From contig JAPLNI010000053.1 of assembly GCA_026692865.1 (NCBI GenBank), positions 186,001 through 250,000 on the forward strand: DNA of 64,000 nt, read 5' to 3'. The stretch is from Planctomycetota bacterium. Its GTDB lineage: Bacteria > Planctomycetota > Planctomycetia > Pirellulales > Pirellulaceae. Below the pieces are notes generated by a model, which saw only the letters and a program-made list of their open reading frames with translations, was not told the DNA's origin and did no database searches. Shown here piece by piece: positions 2,781 to 49,665 of the stretch. Each line of letters opens with the position of its first letter. Positions within the stretch are counted from its first letter, which is position 1. Position numbers and translations under genes: made by a program.

Positions 2781-2910
2781 GATAAAGTTCTCGTTCCGGC
2801 GGCAAAGCTCGGATTGGGTTTTGTTAAGTTTGGGATGCGATAGCTATTCAAAAACTATCTCAGAGGGGTCAGGACCTTTGAAACAGCTCCCAATTCCTCC
2901 GCTGCCCACA

Positions 2911-2932
2911 CTTACGCACCCACTGTGCCAAA
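2911..2932 (-). promoter_or_regulatory. Putative sigma54 promoter of sbp-cysT-cysW
   Basis: Read on the minus strand, the site is TTTGGCACAGTGGGTGCGT. GG (2928-2929) and GC (2916-2917) are separated by exactly ten bases, the invariant sigma54 -24/-12 geometry, and the -24 block TTGGCAC matches the consensus fully. Transcription would start near 2905, about 125 nt before the sbp start. A pair of palindromic sites lies 86-121 bp upstream, and the gene for a sigma54 activator ends just beyond them. Confidence 0.72.
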
Positions 2933-3014
2933 GAGCATCGCGTAAGAAAAAGCCACAAATAAGCTGGCTTTTTTGCAATGAACAGCCCAAGTCAGTAAAT
3001 GCGACAGATACAAG

Positions 3015-3050
3015 CCGTGTTATTTAACGGATTTCCGTGTTTAGTAACGG
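3015..3050 (-). promoter_or_regulatory. Tandem 16-bp palindromes, putative activator (enhancer) sites for sbp
   Basis: Two sites, CCGTGTTATTTAACGG (3015-3030) and CCGTGTTTAGTAACGG (3035-3050), each of the form CCGT-N8-ACGG, with starts exactly 20 bp apart (two helical turns). The nearer one is centred about 94 bp upstream of the sbp -24 element. The first differs at only two positions from the reverse complement of the site at 4737-4752. Binding by the adjacent sigma54 activator is inferred. Confidence 0.68.
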
Positions 3051-3100
3051 GGTGTGCTTAGGGCTGAATGGTATTGAGCGACCAGAACGGCTTGGTACGT

Positions 3101-4705
3101 TTAACGGAACTTGGCCCAGTCGAGCTTGTGCTTTCGCATTCTCGCTCTCAATGTGTGCGGGTTAATTCCCAGCAGTTCCGCAGCACCATTCTTGCCTTCG
3201 ATTTTCCCGCGAGTCGCCGCGAGAGCTCTTTCGATATGCTGGGTCATTGCATCATCGAGGGACATAATAGGCGACTCTTCGGATGCGACTGCCCGTGAGA
3301 TAGGTGGATCATCGGGGATGACTTCGTAGAAGGTCGGCTCATTGTCCGGCGCGCGTGGCGGTGCGGGCTTGCTGAGCCCAAGAGCCGTTGCGACTTCAAG
3401 TGATTTACCATTACCAAGAATCACCGCGCGGTCAACGACAGCCCCCAGTTCGCGAATGTTGCCGGGCCATGAATAGTTCATCAGCATCGCAAGTTCGGCT
3501 GGCTTGGCCTCTACATGGCTGAGCTGAAATCGATCGGCAGCACGCTTGGAGAGATGGCGAACTAATGCGGGAATGTCTTCGATCCGCTCCTTCAATCGCG
3601 GAAGCAAAATGGGGAACACATTGATTCGATACCACAGGTCTTCGCGAAACTGAGCCTGCTTCACCATTGAAGCCAAGTCGCGGTGGGTTGCTGCGATTAT
3701 TCGAACGTCAACATGGATAGACTGCTCGCTGCCAACACGTTCTATATGGTGGTCATGAAGGACACGCAATAAACGAACTTGTGCTTGGAGCGGGAGTTCT
3801 CCAATCTCATCTAGGAATAGGGTCCCTCCCTCTGCTCGCTCAAACCATCCTTTACGTTGGTCCGATGCACCTGTGAAACTACCTTTTTCATGCCCAAAAA
3901 GTTGCGAGTCAATCAACTCAGTTGGTATCGCGCCGCAATTAACCTTGATGAATGGCCCTGCATTTCGTTTCGATCTCGTATGAATCGCTCGAGCAACTAC
4001 TTCTTTTCCTGTTCCGGTTTCACCTAAAATCAATACGGGCACATCGGAATTGGAGACCAATTCGACCCGCTCCATGACAAGTCGCAATCCAGTTTCAGAA
4101 CCGACTACCGCCTCATTAATGTCTTGCCTACCCAAGCGAGAAAGCAGCGTCCGTCGATCCGCTTCTGCTGCTTCACGTAGAGCGTTCAGTTCGCTTCTTC
4201 GATGATCATTCTCAAGCGCAACGGCGATCGGCTTCAGTAATAACTGAGCCAGCTCAAGATCACTCTCTTGAAAGGCTTTCCCAGGTGCAGCAACCAATAC
4301 CCACAAGCCAAACAATTTAGACTCGTACATCAATGGTCCAACAATGATGCGTGAAGAGTCTGTGGTAATCTTGAAGGCTTCGATCGGATTTGGAACGTTG
4401 TTGCTTCGCGAATGCGGTGCATCAAGAAAACTAACGCGACCGGTTTTGCTCCACCGAAGAAACTGCTTCCAAGTGGGGATCGAATAGGTTGTCAGTTTTG
4501 GTAAATCGAGCTGCTTAGAATCAGGAGGATAATAAGCCACTGTTTCAACCGTTCGGTTTTCCTGGTCGATTCTTCCAACTAGCATTCCCGCGATAGGAAG
4601 CTGCTCCGTCAGAAGCTCTTCAATCGATTCGACAGACTCGCGAATCTCGATGTGCCGGCACGCTTCTTGCCAGACTTGAACCAATGTGTGAATGAATGTT
4701 GGCAA
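3101..4705 (-). CDS. Sigma54-dependent transcriptional activator (GAF - AAA+ - Fis)
   Basis: Bacterial enhancer-binding protein that remodels sigma54 RNA polymerase by ATP hydrolysis. With the chosen TTG start (534 aa), a GAF-like sensor covers about residues 20-170, then the AAA+ domain: Walker A GETGTGKE at 228-235, the sigma54-contacting loop GSFTGA at 275-280 (Ala to Ser change from canonical GAFTGA), Walker B TLFLDEIG at 295-302. A Fis-type helix-turn-helix ends the protein (AAELLGINPHTLRARMRKH). The TTG at 4705 is preferred because GGAGG lies 8 bases upstream; a longer frame to 4759 would include presumed operator DNA. Architecture resembles NorR, but the signal is unknown. Neighbouring promoters suggest it controls sulfate uptake, the DUF1559 gene and itself. 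Confidence 0.92.
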   Translation of the reverse strand: MPTFIHTLVQVWQEACRHIEIRESVESIEELLTEQLPIAGMLVGRIDQENRTVETVAYYPPDSKQLDLPKLTTYSIPTWKQFLRWSKTGRVSFLDAPHSRSNNVPNPIEAFKITTDSSRIIVGPLMYESKLFGLWVLVAAPGKAFQESDLELAQLLLKPIAVALENDHRRSELNALREAAEADRRTLLSRLGRQDINEAVVGSETGLRLVMERVELVSNSDVPVLILGETGTGKEVVARAIHTRSKRNAGPFIKVNCGAIPTELIDSQLFGHEKGSFTGASDQRKGWFERAEGGTLFLDEIGELPLQAQVRLLRVLHDHHIERVGSEQSIHVDVRIIAATHRDLASMVKQAQFREDLWYRINVFPILLPRLKERIEDIPALVRHLSKRAADRFQLSHVEAKPAELAMLMNYSWPGNIRELGAVVDRAVILGNGKSLEVATALGLSKPAPPRAPDNEPTFYEVIPDDPPISRAVASEESPIMSLDDAMTQHIERALAATRGKIEGKNGAAELLGINPHTLRARMRKHKLDWAKFR

Positions 4706-43508: not shown

Positions 43509-46500
43509 GTGAGAAATCCCAAGCGAATTGGTCGCTTGCTTTTGCATGAGGCGATCGAGAGTCGGGTCGTTTTCACTATTGATGCGACAGCCGGATTGAT
43601 CGATTTGCCAGCAGAAGTTGATAACTGGACCAATTTTTATGGGTCGCAACTTGCTTCTCAAAATATGTACTCCGCAGACTGGGGACTAGGGATTCTCGAC
43701 CAAGGCGAGTACGCGACGGGTTCATTCGATGTTCCTTACGAATCTGAAATCAACGATTCGGAATTCTTGTCGCAGCAAGACTATTCTGCTGATTATAGCT
43801 CTCCTGACTTCATCGATTACAATTTCGACCCACAGTACATTGACACTACCTATTACGAACCAACCGATACGTTTTCGTCGTGGGACGATTCTGGGCAATA
43901 CCAAACCGTCTACGACACGTTCGATTTCGACTTAAGCTCCATTGATGCGTTCGCATCGAATTCGACCGACTGGAACGATGTGAATCCTGACGAGTTGATT
44001 CAAGACATTATCGAGAATTCTCAAAATGAAGAGCCTGAATTTTATGCGAACGAACATGGTTTCATAGACTTCGTTTACTACGAAAATGATGGTACAAATG
44101 GGAGCGAAAACGATACTTTGTATGATCATGGGCTGAGCTTTGATACCGATTTTTATACAAACTATTCCACCAGCGACGATTCTTTCGATGAAGATTCGTC
44201 CAATGATTCCAATACAAACGAAACCGATGGGTCGCAACAAGAGAATGATCCCAATAGTGAAGGCGACTCACCGGAAGAAAGCTGGCTGACTTTCGATTCT
44301 TCCGGAAGGCCAGGTTTTCGGGTACCTGGAACTGGAATCATTCTAGCGATCGGAGCCGAGGTCACCGCCGCACAGAGGTTTTTCTTGAACGACCAGTATG
44401 GTGATGGCGGAGGCGACTCTGGTGGCAATGCTATCAACGACTCACTTCCGATGAGTATCGATGTAGTTGCTGATGGAAATCAATTCGATGTTTGGGTGAC
44501 AGTCAACTCGAACGAGTCAATCAACGAGGAATCGATTACTGGAACAGAAATCTTTTCGTACGTCGTGCACTATCAACTCGATTCCAACGCAAGATTGGTA
44601 CCGGTAGCATTGAATGGGAGCTATAGCCGAACAATCACGATCGATACTACTGGTTCAGAAACGATTGTTCCCGATCCAAATGATACAAGTGGCTCGTCAT
44701 CGCCAGACGAATCAGATTCGGAAGGTTCAGATTCAGGTGAATCGGCAACAAGTAGTGCAAACGATGATCAAGAGACTGGCGGAACGTTGACGTACGTCTA
44801 TTTTTCCACCGAAACGCTGACCCTTACTTGGAGCCTTACCACTGTTTCGTCGTCTTATTCGAGCTCCTCGCGCTTGACCGCGACGATCACCGAACAATTC
44901 ACGAATTCTCTGGCTGGTGCTCCCGATGAAATTGAAGGAGCAAGTGAGGGCGAGAATGGTGAAGCAAGTGAAGGAACCATCGCCAGTTCAGGAACTGTAA
45001 ATACTGGCTCTGTGTCAGGAGTGTCCACATTCGAACTCACGTCGATCTCCTCTCAATCGCTTAACTACGTCTTGGACGTCACGAGTGACGACTACACATC
45101 GTACAACTACACGTCACAAAGCAACTCGACAGTTACCAACACCCGCACGGCGACCGGCACGTACACATCAACGTCAACCGAATCGTTTGCGATCACAGGA
45201 ACGACTACCGAGTACGATCGACAAACCGTTATCTCCAACGATTCAATATCGCTCTCGTATCAAGGTGCTGCGTGGGTGGTCGGCGGAACTTCGACCAATT
45301 CATTGACCACTACTTCTGTCTTTACGAATGCTTACAGCGGAACCTATACGTCAATTGTTCAAGGCGTATCGGTAACGGGTACTGTATCCGGTCAATCAAG
45401 GACTTCATCGACGACGCAATCAGAAGTCGCATCCAGCTTGAAACCCGTTGAAGCAACTACGCCTTCCGAAGATGGCGAAGAGATTTCAGAAGGTTCCGAT
45501 GATTCAAATACGAGTTCCGAGGAAACAGCTTACGGTTGGACCCTCGATTCCTACAGCGAAAGCGGCTCGTCCACAGACTTCAATAGCCAAATGTCCGATC
45601 TTACGGCTTCCATCACTGCTGGCAACTTAAGTGGAACAGTCACCGAGACATCGACATCGAGCTCTAACGTTGCGTCGAGTTGGGAAATCGGTCTTGTTGT
45701 CGAATCGGTATACATGAATTTCCAACAAACCACCACGGCCGATTCGCTCTATGATTTTAACAAGGATTTATCTGGCCCATTAACCGAAGATGGCTTGACC
45801 GGCACACAGTGGGAAATTGAAACCAACTTTCAGGAATCGTCACTGTTTTCGCAATCGAAGAGTTCTCTATCGTCTAAAGATCCAGAAGAAGTCAAATCAT
45901 CCACCACGGGAGATGTATCGGGTTCAGGGAATTCACTTACTGACGTAGGCCGCTCGCTCTCCGGTAGCATCTCACGCGGCGATTTAAGCGGAACCGCGTC
46001 TCGGATGTCTCAGGAAGTCATTCGAACTGGATTCAATTACTCAGGTTCTTTTTCTGGTGATGACATCGACTACGACCAGTACCAAAGCACCGCGTCGGGT
46101 GATAACACCACCGACAATTCCGAATCGCTAGCAGGAGTCTTTCAAGCGTCGGTCCCTGGGATGGATCAAGAGATTATCGGTACACAATCCGAAAGCAAAA
46201 GCAAATACAGCAACACATTTTGGTTAGTTGTGACTGGGCTCGGCGAATCCGGTGATATTGGTGACTCGATAGGAGGATACTCGTTCACGCAGCGGGACTC
46301 ATTCGATGCGACGCGATCGGCCGAGCGTAGCTATTCCCGTGTAGATGGAGACACGCAGTTTAGCGGATCCGCTAATGTCACGATCACCGAATCGTTTTTA
46401 TCGAGAGCAACCATCGGGAGTCAACTCCGTGGCGATTCAAACGAAACCGATTTGGGGCCTTCGACGGGGACCAGTCAGACGACTGTTGGCTCCAGCTATA

Positions 46501-46583
46501 TATCGAGATTCTCAGGTTTCGGCACCATCGGGGCGACAGCATCCAATGATTCCGAAGACGGATCTTCATCGAGCTCACCCTAG
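43509..46583 (+). CDS. Giant Ser/Thr/Asp-rich acidic exported protein with internal repeats
   Basis: A 1024-aa protein dominated by Ser, Thr, Asp and Glu. The start is a GTG. Residues 8-18 (GRLLLHEAIESRVVF) resemble the planctomycete N-terminal 'LExR' sorting motif of large secreted proteins. Residues 60-250 are rich in Tyr, Asp and Ser. From about 280, beta-rich repeats occur with a recurring core: TAGNLSGTVTETSTSS, SRGDLSGTASRMSQEV, VSVTGTVSGQSRTSST. No catalytic motif seen. The 3' end runs directly into a small repeat cluster, so the C-terminus may be truncated. Probably a surface or matrix protein. Confidence 0.7.
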   Translation: MRNPKRIGRLLLHEAIESRVVFTIDATAGLIDLPAEVDNWTNFYGSQLASQNMYSADWGLGILDQGEYATGSFDVPYESEINDSEFLSQQDYSADYSSPDFIDYNFDPQYIDTTYYEPTDTFSSWDDSGQYQTVYDTFDFDLSSIDAFASNSTDWNDVNPDELIQDIIENSQNEEPEFYANEHGFIDFVYYENDGTNGSENDTLYDHGLSFDTDFYTNYSTSDDSFDEDSSNDSNTNETDGSQQENDPNSEGDSPEESWLTFDSSGRPGFRVPGTGIILAIGAEVTAAQRFFLNDQYGDGGGDSGGNAINDSLPMSIDVVADGNQFDVWVTVNSNESINEESITGTEIFSYVVHYQLDSNARLVPVALNGSYSRTITIDTTGSETIVPDPNDTSGSSSPDESDSEGSDSGESATSSANDDQETGGTLTYVYFSTETLTLTWSLTTVSSSYSSSSRLTATITEQFTNSLAGAPDEIEGASEGENGEASEGTIASSGTVNTGSVSGVSTFELTSISSQSLNYVLDVTSDDYTSYNYTSQSNSTVTNTRTATGTYTSTSTESFAITGTTTEYDRQTVISNDSISLSYQGAAWVVGGTSTNSLTTTSVFTNAYSGTYTSIVQGVSVTGTVSGQSRTSSTTQSEVASSLKPVEATTPSEDGEEISEGSDDSNTSSEETAYGWTLDSYSESGSSTDFNSQMSDLTASITAGNLSGTVTETSTSSSNVASSWEIGLVVESVYMNFQQTTTADSLYDFNKDLSGPLTEDGLTGTQWEIETNFQESSLFSQSKSSLSSKDPEEVKSSTTGDVSGSGNSLTDVGRSLSGSISRGDLSGTASRMSQEVIRTGFNYSGSFSGDDIDYDQYQSTASGDNTTDNSESLAGVFQASVPGMDQEIIGTQSESKSKYSNTFWLVVTGLGESGDIGDSIGGYSFTQRDSFDATRSAERSYSRVDGDTQFSGSANVTITESFLSRATIGSQLRGDSNETDLGPSTGTSQTTVGSSYISRFSGFGTIGATASNDSEDGSSSSSP

Positions 46584-46656
46584 AACGAAAGGACACACCC
46601 TAGAACGAAAGGACATGCATTGCGTTGATTGTTGAAAAATCCTGAAAAGCTGACTA
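46579..46656. repeat. GAACGAAAGGACATGCATTG repeat, upstream copy
   Basis: CCCTAGAACGAAAGGACA occurs twice in tandem (46579-46596 and 46599-46616). The second continues into a 40-bp block GAACGAAAGGACATGCATTG ... GAAAAATCC that recurs at 47360-47399 just before the transposase promoter. It overlaps the end of the giant Ser-rich gene. Confidence 0.75.
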
Positions 46657-47016
46657 GAATGGAACGAAGACAATCAAGACTTCGAGTGGCATACCTACGA
46701 AGAAGTTTCCAACAGTACATCCAACTGGTTTGCTGAAGACGCCAGTTTGGCGAATTCATCCAGTACCAACGACGATACGACTTCTACCGGCAGCAGCAGG
46801 GGTCGAACCGGCGATTCGTTCGAGAGTACCACCGATCGAACCACCAACGGCGAGACGGAAACCACCACCGACAGCGGCTCAACAGAAAGATCCTACGAGA
46901 CCAACACCGAAGAAGACATGAGCCAAACGGGGACACGCGCAAAACGGACCGCTTGTTTTTGCTCGCTAAATGTTTGCGGATTGCAACTTAAGCAACCGAG
47001 AACATGGCCAAACTAA
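46655..47016 (+). pseudogene. Remnant of a Ser/Thr/Asp-rich protein gene
   Basis: An open frame without a start: LEWNEDNQDFEWHTYEEVSN, then TSNWFAEDASLANSSSTNDD and a Thr-rich tail. Composition is like the giant protein just upstream, so this may be its detached 3' end or part of a lost paralogue. From about 46959 the frame runs through the repeat at 46959-47207, where it ends in non-native sequence. No ribosome binding site precedes it. Confidence 0.45.
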
Positions 47017-47207
47017 TAGCAAGCAAACTTGCCGCCGACATTCTGCCCGCGAATTACGCGAATGAACGCGGATAAATGCGGGCAAGAACTGGTTCGGGAC
47101 TTGTACGCGATCCCTAATTCATTCGCGTAAATCCGCGCCATTCGCGGGCAAACAGTACCAAGCAAAGTTGTCGCCGACGGATTTTGTGCGTATCCCCGCG
47201 CGTGTCT
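46959..47207. repeat. Long direct repeat, left copy
   Basis: The block AACTAATAGCAAGCAAACTT ... ATTTTGTGCGTATCCCCGCG (47011-47207) recurs at 49011-49225, exactly 2000 bp away at its start. It contains inverted arms CGCGAATTACGCGAATGAACG and its mate CATTCGCGTAAATCCGCGCC, and short copies of AAGCAAA(G/C)TTGTCGCCGAC at both ends. The upstream 46959-47010 part matches 43131-43180. Confidence 0.8.
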
Positions 47208-47257
47208 GGATTTCGTAGCTAAGGGGTTTGCGGGCTCGGCGTAAACGCCTCGGGGAA

Positions 47258-47304
47258 CAGCTGGGACAGCATGTTCTACAGTGTAGATCAGCTGTCCCCA
47301 GCTG
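47258..47304. other. Hairpin between long repeat and transposase promoter
   Basis: CAGCTGGGACAGC (47258-47270) and GCTGTCCCCAGCTG (47291-47304) pair with one bulge, and the loop contains a smaller TCTACAGTGTAGA palindrome. It lies in the 445-bp non-coding stretch before the transposase gene. Confidence 0.6.
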
Positions 47305-47359
47305 ATTAGCGCACTAAGTGAGTTTCTATCAAACTTGACTTCTTGGCCTAGCGGGAAAT

Positions 47360-47412
47360 GAACGAAAGGACATGCATTGCGTTGATTGTTGAAAAATCCC
47401 GAAGGCTGACTA
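47360..47412. repeat. GAACGAAAGGACATGCATTG repeat, copy adjoining transposase promoter
   Basis: Forty bases identical to 46604-46643, then a similar GAAGGCTGACT. It ends at the -35 box of the transposase gene. Its core GGACATGCAT reappears inverted (ATGCATGTCC) four times downstream of the gene. Confidence 0.8.
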
Positions 47413-47440
47413 TTGACATAGGTGTATACATACGTACACT
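47413..47440 (+). promoter_or_regulatory. Promoter of the REP-type transposase gene
   Basis: A perfect TTGACA (47413-47418) and TACACT (47435-47440) lie 16 bp apart. The spacer and -10 contain an imperfect palindrome GTGTATACATACGTACAC that could be an operator. Confidence 0.55.
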
Positions 47441-47461
47441 TTTTGTCTTGGAGGGTTAGCT

Positions 47462-48499
47462 ATGACGATTTCACGTGCAAAGTTGATTAATCCGGAAGTG
47501 ACTCGCTGGTATCACTGCATATCGAGATGCGTGCGGCGGGCGTATTTGTTTGGCGAGGGGAACGAGGATGCCGCGGGGCTTAATCGGAAAGCTTGGATGG
47601 AGGAACGATTACGCTTTCTCAATAGTCTCTTCGCTGTTTCGGTGGCGGGATTTGCCGTCTTGGATAATCATCTCCATACCCTAGTTCGAATGGATTTGGC
47701 GGATGCCAAGCAATGGTCACCTTGGGAAGTGGTCCGTCGATGGTTGGTCCTCTTTCCACCGCGTGACAGGAAACGATTGCCGATCGAAGTCACTCCCGAG
47801 TTGATTGAATCCAAGATTCAGGACTCTGCCTATGTCGAAGAGATTCGAAATCGGTTGTCTTCTATCAGTTGGTTCATGAAGTGTTTGAAGGAGCCACTGG
47901 CAAGGTTGGCTAATAAAGCCGACGATTGCAAAGGGGCATTCTTCGAGGGACGCTTCAAATCGATCGCCATTCTTGATGAGGAATCGCTGCTAACGGTTTG
48001 CGCCTATATCGATCTCAACCCAGTGGCGGCTGGAATCGCAGAGGTTCCCGAAGAAAGCCAACACACGTCGATCAAAGAGCGAGTGGATCATGTGGCTAGT
48101 CAGGGAAGAATCGATGATCTTCGCGTCGCCAAACGCGGAAGCGTTGCAGCCATCAAGGCGGCCTGTCATTTAGAAGAAGGCTTGTGGTTGATCCCGATTG
48201 AAGACCGTCGAGCGATCGATTCGAAACGAGAAGGCATGCTCAGCGGTTTTACGCTCGGCAACTATCTTATGTTGTTGGAATACACCGGTAGGATCGTTCG
48301 AGCTGGGAAGGTATCTATCTCGCCGGAGATTCTGGACATCTTCGATCGAATCGGGACAACAGCGCAGCGATGGCAGAATCGGGTAAAGAAGATGATCGCT
48401 AATCGCTGGTATGGCTCATTCATTGCCAGCAGTCGCCAACTTCTAATCGAGACGGCCAATAAGCTGGGTCTTCACCACTTAGCAAACGCGGGTAGCTAG
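47462..48499 (+). CDS. REP-associated (Y1/HUH-type) transposase-like protein
   Basis: A 345-aa relative of the TnpA-REP (RAYT) and IS200 transposases. TRWYHCISRCVRRAYLFGEG starts the fold, the metal-binding HxH is DNHLH (His70, His72), and GAFFEGRFKS plus AYIDLNPVAAGI are RAYT family blocks. It is longer than typical RAYTs (~200 aa) through a C-terminal extension (about 200-345). In the helix expected to hold the nucleophile (about 133-153) I see no Tyr; Tyr124 and Tyr182 are the nearest. The ATG has GGAGG at eight bases. Several repeat families flank the gene, but no terminal IS ends were found. Confidence 0.85.
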   Translation: MTISRAKLINPEVTRWYHCISRCVRRAYLFGEGNEDAAGLNRKAWMEERLRFLNSLFAVSVAGFAVLDNHLHTLVRMDLADAKQWSPWEVVRRWLVLFPPRDRKRLPIEVTPELIESKIQDSAYVEEIRNRLSSISWFMKCLKEPLARLANKADDCKGAFFEGRFKSIAILDEESLLTVCAYIDLNPVAAGIAEVPEESQHTSIKERVDHVASQGRIDDLRVAKRGSVAAIKAACHLEEGLWLIPIEDRRAIDSKREGMLSGFTLGNYLMLLEYTGRIVRAGKVSISPEILDIFDRIGTTAQRWQNRVKKMIANRWYGSFIASSRQLLIETANKLGLHHLANAGS

Positions 48500-48688
48500 C
48501 CGTCACCTGCTGTAGAAAGCGAACTTTCTCTCTCGCACTTGCACCTAATCCTCACACGGACAGTGTAAACGAGTGGACAAGATTGGTGGTTCCCCCTCAG
48601 CCCGACATCGCGTCTGCTACCCCAAGCAATGTGAGCTCTTTCGCATTTTCGTCCATATTGCAATACTGGTGCCTTTGCAAAAGCCGTC

Positions 48689-48815
48689 GTCCAAAACAAT
48701 GCATGTCCTTGTGACCTTGTTGTCCAAAACAATGCATGTCCTTGTGACCTTGCTTATGCATGTCCTTGTGACCTGTTCCCATGCATGTCCTTGTGACCTC
48801 TTCTTGTGACCTCTT
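48689..48815. repeat. Tandem array of ATGCATGTCCTTGTGACCT units
   Basis: Four exact copies of the 19-mer ATGCATGTCCTTGTGACCT start at 48699, 48732, 48756 and 48781, with a partial fifth (CTTGTGACCT, 48803). Intervals are 33, 24 and 25 bp. The first two share the extra prefix GTCCAAAACA. ATGCATGTCC is the inverse of GGACATGCAT in the repeats before the transposase gene, which begins the array about 190 bp upstream. Confidence 0.88.
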
Positions 48816-48949
48816 AGGAGCACAAACCGAACCCACGCAAGGCGTTTCAAAAGTCTTTTCCGTGTCTTCCGCGTTCTCCGTGTCCAATACCAATCGCACA
48901 AATGAGAAATCTGCAAACAGGAAAACTCGTAAACCAAATCGATCGGATT

Positions 48950-49225
48950 GGCTTGCTAAATATCTGTTGAACGCAGCCCATGTGACTGACGTCTCAACCA
49001 AACAGTAGGCAACTGATAGCGAGCAAAGTTGTTGCCAACTTTTTGCCCGCGAATCACGCGAATGAGCGCGGATTAATACGGGCAAGAGCTGGTTCGGGAC
49101 TTGTACTCGATCCCCCAATTCATTCACGTAGATCCGCGCTATTCGCGGGCAAACGAAGCAAGTAGCGGATTAGCCAAACTAATAGCGAGCAAAGTTGTCG
49201 CCTACGGATTTTGTGCGTGTCCCCG
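48950..49225. repeat. Long direct repeat, right copy
   Basis: Mate of the block at 46959-47207, with the 140-bp palindromic middle and short ends repeated at both sides (AGCGAGCAAAGTTGT). The copy ends where a transposase relic begins. The region 48500-48950 holds the tandem array and no real gene. Confidence 0.8.
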
Positions 49226-49257
49226 CGTGTTCATCCCCCGCGTGTTCATTCATCCCC

Positions 49258-49665
49258 CTGCTTCGCAGCAACGTATGCGATTGGACGGATGAACAACTTT
49301 GGAAGGCTTATATTCAGCTGACCGAAGCAGAATCAGCCTTTCGAATACATAAAACCGATTTGAGTCTTCGTCCGGTATGGCATCAAAAAGAAGACCGCGT
49401 AAGAGCCCATATCCTGGTCTGCTTCCTGGCGTATGTGCTTTGGAAAACTCTCGGGCAGCTATGCACCAAAGCTGGCTTAGGTGATGAACCGCGTCGAGTC
49501 CTTTCCGAGCTGTCCGATATTCGATTGGTCGACGTCGTCCTTCCAACCGACAGCGGCCAAGAGATCCGCACCAGCTGCGTAACACGCCCAACTGAACATC
49601 AACAGATCTTGCTAGAAAAGCTATCCCTTCGGCTCCCTACAAGACTTAAAACAAGGGAAATGTAG
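49258..49665 (+). pseudogene. C-terminal relic of an IS1634/IS4-type DDE transposase
   Basis: An open frame of about 135 codons without start: [20 protein letters not shown], then [42 protein letters not shown]. This resembles the C-terminal part of IS1634-like transposases, containing the Glu of the DDE triad in the YxxLTEAE(S/A)AFR region. The rest of the gene is missing; the sequence upstream is the long repeat. A dead element. Confidence 0.72.

Follow-up and report, generated by a model that had tools for sequence, protein, structure and literature searches.

The stretch of DNA analyzed here, called the window throughout, is a 64-kb segment of a contig from a planctomycete of the family Pirellulaceae. 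It contains a candidate mobile unit in which the gene for a long Y1 (HUH-tyrosine) transposase is set between copies of a short motif, GGACATGCAT, whose arrangement supports a role as the inverted ends of the unit, with a tip of about 10 letters in mirror orientation. The unit is about 1.35 kb long, beginning with the left tip (47366) and closing with the first right tip (end at 48710). This is narrower than first drawn: the initial annotation had suggested that the gene and all of its surrounding repeats could move as one, which is supported for the GGACATGCAT tips as inverted ends but not for a pair of long direct repeats. Judged by these features, the unit is a TIRYT/TIRtron of a long-protein type resembling TnpA_Y1 subclass 2.3. 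The explanation considered probable is a TIRYT-type transposon with hairpin-free inverted tips, recognition of these tips by the HUH-tyrosine enzyme, and one-ended local copying of tips. It is built on conserved inverted tips at a near-fixed distance from the gene, boundaries in two copy pairs, presence or absence of the unit in related genomes, a TnpA_REP fold, one-way arrays, and solitary tips.

There are six matches to GGACATGCAT in the window, where shuffling (100 replicates) gives a mean of 0.12 and never more than one. Their distribution is as initially described: two are upstream of the gene on the forward strand (46611 and 47368) and four downstream on the reverse strand (48699, 48732, 48756, and 48781). 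The unit and its immediate surroundings comprise:

46576..46615, forward strand: two tandem copies of a 20-bp unit, CACCCTAGAACGAAAGGACA, on the outer edge of the solitary left end
46603..46656, forward strand: solitary left end, identical to 47360-47412 in 51 of 54 columns, without gene or right tip
47366..47379, forward strand: left tip (left end, LE), AAGGACATGCATTG, with 83 bp from the tip end to the start codon
47413..47440, forward strand: promoter-like pair TTGACA-16-TACACT between left tip and gene
47462..48499, forward strand: Y1 (HUH-tyrosine) transposase gene, 345 aa, with NHLH and YIDLNP motifs, a TnpA_REP fold, and an extra C-terminal helical region
48697..48710, reverse strand: first right tip (right end, RE), the inverse of the left tip
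48730..48743, reverse strand: second right tip; it and the first lie in direct repeats of 33 bp (97%)
48756..48767, reverse strand: third right tip
48781..48792, reverse strand: fourth right tip, on whose outer side CTTGTGACCTCTT recurs once (48790, 48803)

The layout is a hairpin-free tip, a long Y1 transposase gene, a tail of ~200 bp, and an inverted tip; the solitary left end is just 3' of the stop codon of an open reading frame (ORF) at 43509-46583. All four exact matches to the 14-mer AAGGACATGCATTG in the genome are at this locus, and allowing one mismatch adds one more here and two elsewhere. The 11-mer AAGGACATGCA is found nine times, six of them at the locus, with the other three close to the estimated chance level.

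The initial annotation had spoken of hairpins of these motifs. Of 12 tip regions folded as single-stranded DNA, 11 did no better than a z-score of -2 relative to shuffled sequences (range -2.29 to 1.28, one below -2). With no excess folding in all but one, the tips differ both from repetitive extragenic palindromes (REPs) and from the ends of IS200/IS605 elements. A preference for insertion beside hairpins, an idea that came from a REP neighboring the unit here and a terminator-like stem in Pseudoalteromonas, was rejected: perfect stems of at least 8 are found in 3/55 tip flanks and 3/216 controls (means 4.2 and 4.3).

The 345-aa protein has NHLH as its HUH motif and YIDLNP as its class-2 tyrosine signature. 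Its matches to existing profiles are weak (Pfam Y1_Tnp, 14.7 bits with a cut-off of 23; NCBIfam REP_Tyr_transpos, 34.4 bits with a cut-off of 80); 25 of 26 family members match NCBIfam NF047646 at E up to 0.01, the window protein scoring under the curated cut-off. A structure model from 26 proteins, those of the window and related loci (pLDDT 81, pTM 0.84), has E. coli TnpA_REP (4er8) as its best Foldseek match (E 1e-3, probability 1.00), and by VIA aligns with 4er8 at Z 12.9 over 158 residues, followed by IS608 at Z 7.0. An HUH motif, a Y---NP signature, and a TnpA_REP fold, the marks of the RAYT / TnpA_REP family, are thus all present, and the gene product, called a REP-type transposase from the outset, is by this model a Y1 transposase of RAYT (TnpA_REP) fold. 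A PDB sequence search with the protein gave no match at E up to 10, and no relatives were found in the viral contigs searched.

Relatives for a count of tips were gathered from 296 genomes of the order, 107 of which had a match, and from named genomes (56 loci). Each distinct gene of at least 44% identity has a single row in the count (68 loci, the window among them); near-identical genes were counted once, and loci below 44% identity or with a missing gene start, stop, or flank were omitted. Of 48 testable loci, 33 (in 23 of 29 genomes) have the pattern [A/G]GGACA[G/T]GC no more than 140 bp ahead of the start codon, compared to none in antisense, one reversed, and a mean of 0.19 (maximum 2) in shuffles; the distance to the start codon has a median of 83 bp, with a range of 72-136. 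Its inverse follows the stop codon at up to 400 bp in 22 of 56 loci (15/34 genomes), with two the wrong way and a shuffle mean of 0.5 (maximum 3). Both ends carry tips in 14 of 38 loci, and in 12 of these 14 elements the variable tip letter is the same at both ends (one-sided Fisher p 0.010, uncorrected for kinship). Since the pattern was read from the same loci, its strength is in orientation, spacing, and controls. Whether the tip is a T or a G type does not track the protein tree: the T group requires five changes, against a shuffled mean of 5.8, and 105 of 500 shuffles are as low.

Boundaries could be compared in 11 copy pairs. In two of these, homology stops within 10 bp of both tips: a Singulisphaera GP187 pair (90.6%), with homology from 2925 to 4344 and tips at 2927 and 4340 (L090), and a Pirellula pair (88.2%), with homology from 2908 to 4277 and tips at 2917 and 4276 (L072). 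In another three pairs (L034/L065, L087/L075, and L067/L069), homology starts within 10 bp of the left tip, and either stops short of the right end or has no right tip that could be found; the remaining six have no tip boundary in the main aligned block. The edges of copies in genomes G220 and G288 were also compared and have no clear common edge. Between the isocitrate dehydrogenase and acetolactate synthase genes of Pseudoalteromonas, the unit is present in P. shioyasakiensis SDCH90 and A316 and absent in CF6-2, which has the empty site. By eye only, the inner and outer tips in SDCH90 and A316 resemble two nested inverted pairs.

The near-fixed distance between tip and start codon would also be expected of regulatory sites, with an operator 5' of the gene and a processing or termination signal 3' of it, in place of transposition ends. 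TTGAC is found between tip and start in 16/33 relatives (the reversed string in 4/33), which would suit this explanation. The promoter-like pair of the window, taken alone, is at chance level (one found; shuffle mean 1.1). Regulation is nevertheless improbable as the whole function of the tips, given the inverted copy past the stop codon, the end of copy homology at the tips, and the arrays and solitary copies outside the unit; no terminator-like site was found in 47300-48900. A search of Rfam gave no match at the gathering score. The tips of a transposon could possibly serve in autoregulation besides transposition.

The tips are not confined to planctomycetes. A tblastn search of plasmid records yielded 13 from Gammaproteobacterial genera, seven of them Pseudoalteromonas. 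Proteins from the Alteromonadales, Vibrionales, and Aeromonas are 34-43% identical to the window protein and carry FWE and YVDLNP; the eight Gammaproteobacterial proteins placed in a tree form one supported group. A relaxed pattern, GACANVCA, chosen after these flanks had been seen, was counted in 12 of the 13 records, the Aeromonas locus being omitted because it is in two pieces with a broken frame. It is found within 160 bp upstream in nine of the 12 (none the wrong way; shuffle mean 0.4, maximum 2), and inverted within 400 bp downstream in nine (two the wrong way; shuffle mean 0.7, maximum 3), with both tips in six. Among these records, L192 and L196 represent a single insertion shared by two strains, and L183 is closely related to L194. 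Typically the tip reads GACACCCA, and in seven of the nine it lies at -73 to -80, close to the planctomycete distance. In some clades at 33-39% identity, other candidate inverted motifs were seen, such as GGTGCCACCCATCTA in L132 and four copies of AGGACACCCACTTT downstream in L111, while the flanks of others at this identity revealed none. The L132, L138, L060, and L111 flanks have clade-specific inverted or arrayed motifs (GGTGCCACCCA, GTGCCACCCACT, TGGTGCCAGCCACCA, and AGGACACCCACTTT), perhaps reflecting a wider tip code, G[A/C]CANNCA.

Tips are frequently repeated locally, and in one direction. All 37 extra tips within 300 bp outside a unit are in the same orientation as the tip they follow; at 400-700 bp, three are in the same and one in the opposite orientation. 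Direct repeats of at least 10 bp are found in a 72-bp span across the tip in 23 of 55 cases, but in only 3 of 109 control spans at the same loci (1/54 further out, 2/55 inside). Tips also occur without a gene. The exact 12-mer AGGACAGGCATC is present eight times in genome G160 and six times in G200, with no occurrences of a reversed control, and five stretches at tip sites without a known copy (L199-L203) have no transposase match. In one of these, positions 1-1025 of L201 (from G160) hold 14 tips in one orientation, none inverted, at intervals of 22 to 284 bp, the sequence in between being varied; this locus is ~13 kb from the nearest known copy, with no transposase match in the 2 kb fetched. 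By the same survey, L199 has four tips, L200 and L202 three each, and L203 one. In Pseudoalteromonas (L186 and L188), right-end segments of ~178 and 131 bp are tandemly duplicated outside the first right tip.

If the unit is real, its tip arrays could still be products of ordinary replication slippage in short repeats, unrelated to the transposase. Slippage does yield same-orientation tandem copies, and some arrays consist of short simple units (octamer-like outside L090, A-rich outside L069). This alternative is rather unlikely: it does not readily account for the greater frequency of edge repeats at tips than in the same-locus controls, for the 131- and 178-bp Gammaproteobacterial units, or for solitary ends apart from the gene, at 46603 here and as the same-way tips of L201.

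In the TIRYT-type mechanism favored here, the HUH-tyrosine enzyme would recognize RGACANNCA-type tips in exposed single strands, perhaps with the assistance of its extra C-terminal region. With the tips in inverted orientation, nicking would fall on opposite strands at the two ends. Processing of both ends would move the unit; nicking of one end alone would allow extension or re-ligation to copy the tip and some of its flank locally without a change of orientation. This one-ended step is proposed as the origin of the window's four right tips and its solitary left end. A broader version is plausible but somewhat more doubtful than not: a whole branch of long Y1 transposases, found across phyla, may have hairpin-free inverted tips of the RGACANNCA type as its general target, with one-ended action leaving arrays of one orientation and solitary ends, both next to the gene and at a distance from it, as a birth route of REP-like families. 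Y1 single-strand transposases are understood via hairpin recognition, and a branch with short, unstructured inverted tips would need another means of finding and pairing its ends. For clustered REP-like repeats, the one-way arrays of tips suggest an origin that can be put to the test.

Several observations weigh against this explanation. The planctomycete pattern fails to find a right tip in 34 of 56 loci and a left tip in 15 of 48, and the tip patterns were chosen after the flanks had been seen. Only two of the 11 copy pairs show both boundaries, and the Pseudoalteromonas empty-site join is placed only approximately (~86% identity), not to the base. The C-terminal region modeled alone (pLDDT 74, pTM 0.63) has no structural match with E < 3. 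The 5.55-Mb genome has a single transposase match and no exact tip away from this locus, and so gives no sign of recent movement here. Finally, we infer nicking, its strand, and the one-ended step from the arrangement of tips.

The TIRYT and TIRtron names were coined by Di Nocera et al. (2013; PMC3733652), who describe terminal inverted repeats (TIRs) in dimers or clusters and note that R. baltica has many tyrosine transposase genes flanked by repeats. The window unit agrees with that description in having a RAYT-like tyrosine transposase gene flanked at similar distances by inverted repeats that have no relation to GTAG REPs, with a short shared motif and clustered repeats. It differs in its tip, AAGGACATGC, which is not a letter-for-letter fit to GGGGWSAS (the window tip AAGGACAT deviates at the first two letters and the last), and in its 345-aa protein; as described there, GGGGWSAS is in some TIRs only and does not define all TIRYTs. 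In the present analysis, boundaries were also tested on copy pairs, and array orientation and the solitary end measured.

Quentin et al. (2018; PMC6006769) place 20 of 26 TIRYTs in subclass 2.1 and report that genes of subclasses 2.1 and 2.3 are without REP-like sequences. The window protein resembles TnpA_Y1 subclass 2.3 in its length (345 aa; median 325), in YIDLNP for YVDLNP, and in having relatives in the Alteromonadales, but has NHLH for NHYH and FE for WE; this comparison is by length and motifs, the subclass criteria there including subclass-specific insertions and a C-terminal domain as well. For subclass 2.3 that paper gives no REP-like sequences, whereas inverted tips are present here; these provide a defined substrate for such a protein type, with binding and nicking directly testable. 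Within the literature searched, the word TIRYT occurs in these two papers alone and no later description of the tips was found, subscription papers and preprints being outside the search.

Of the better-known systems, TnpA_REP/RAYT with GTAG REPs (E. coli, 4er8) shares the fold and the HUH and Y---NP motifs. The Y1 catalytic core is shared with IS200/IS605, of which the IS608 and ISDra2 transposases match at Z 6-7. The E. coli enzyme cuts REPs strand-specifically. Unlike the TnpA_REP system, the window unit has hairpin-free tip ends that are not a genome-dispersed REP family, and the protein an extra C-terminal region of ~145 residues. Unlike IS200/IS605 elements, it has inverted tips in place of subterminal hairpins at both ends, and a protein more than twice as long; no TnpB match was found among the window ORFs scanned (five in one scan, four in another).

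Two further repeat families surround the unit:

47011..47153, forward strand: dispersed repeat A, upstream copy, outside the unit
47205..47354, forward strand: dispersed repeat B, outside the unit, whose GTAG-footed hairpin (47283-47306) and a second palindrome face each other
49011..49154, forward strand: dispersed repeat A, downstream copy, with an orthologue in G326 without the gene

The copies of repeat A are the long direct repeats of the initial annotation, and are as it gave them: they align without gaps over 104 nt at 87% and with gaps over 220 columns at 78%, and their starts are exactly 2000 bp apart. Flanking the gene in direct orientation, they could conceivably be its ends, with gene and repeats moving together. 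With the 47011 copy as query, however, the search for further copies found 26 matches (~20 places by count) in a genome with one such gene, and since both are members of a dispersed family, little can be read from their spacing of exactly 2000 bp. G326, a genome of the same genus (87% complete), runs collinear with window 31820-53987 over the fetched extent, and at this locus lacks the transposase, ORF 43509-46583, and an IS1634 relic. Between the same neighbors it retains the orthologue of the 49011 copy (window 48847-49149 corresponding to L160 10039-10337, 85%) and a degenerate upstream copy (75-82% over 49-70 nt). For the long repeats, this is the outcome that the initial annotation had named as refuting its reading, repeats in a related genome with no RAYT. 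Repeat A is therefore not the ends of the unit; the compared copy pairs are bounded without need of any long repeats of this kind, and joint movement of gene and repeats can hardly be the explanation.

Repeat B has the form of a GTAG-type REP doublet, feet face to face (CTAC-A-N-T-GTAG), and is dispersed in this genome as well as in G326. When up to two mismatches are allowed, its core pattern matches 23 times here and 14 times in G326, counted by strand, some sites matching on both strands; a reversed control gives no match. Its hairpin, 60 bp before the left tip, is the only GTAG hairpin within 1 kb of the gene in a scan for perfect stems of at least 7. In a REPtron, a RAYT gene has GT[AG]G-footed hairpins of its cognate REP family on its flanks, and this hairpin is the one candidate for such a repeat here. 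RAYTs are known to act on such REPs (PMC6006769), and the gene might be a domesticated RAYT with this doublet as its substrate and the tips as relics. That is very improbable: repeat B is as widespread in G326, whose only transposase relative (33%, elsewhere in the genome) has fetched flanks without the repeat B core, and relatives of the transposase carry tips, not repeat B. In nine loci around other Y1 matches of both genomes (L167-L174 and L204, with L172 and L204 the same place), neither GTAGATCAGC nor its complement is present; an isolated GGACAGCT occurs in L169, and other GTAG hairpins in L168 and L170. No recognizable empty site was found among the other copies of repeat B.

The damaged genes initially noted on both sides of the transposase are borne out. 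ORF 43509-46583 encodes 1024 aa, rich in Ser, Thr, and Asp, and a similar coding style resumes from ~46660, past the solitary left end; no relative was found in the other 118 of 119 family genomes. On the downstream side, ORF 49195-49665 is the C-terminal relic of an IS1634-type transposase, matching NF033559 at E 2.5e-27 (96 bits, cut-off 100) over profile positions 362-481 of 483.

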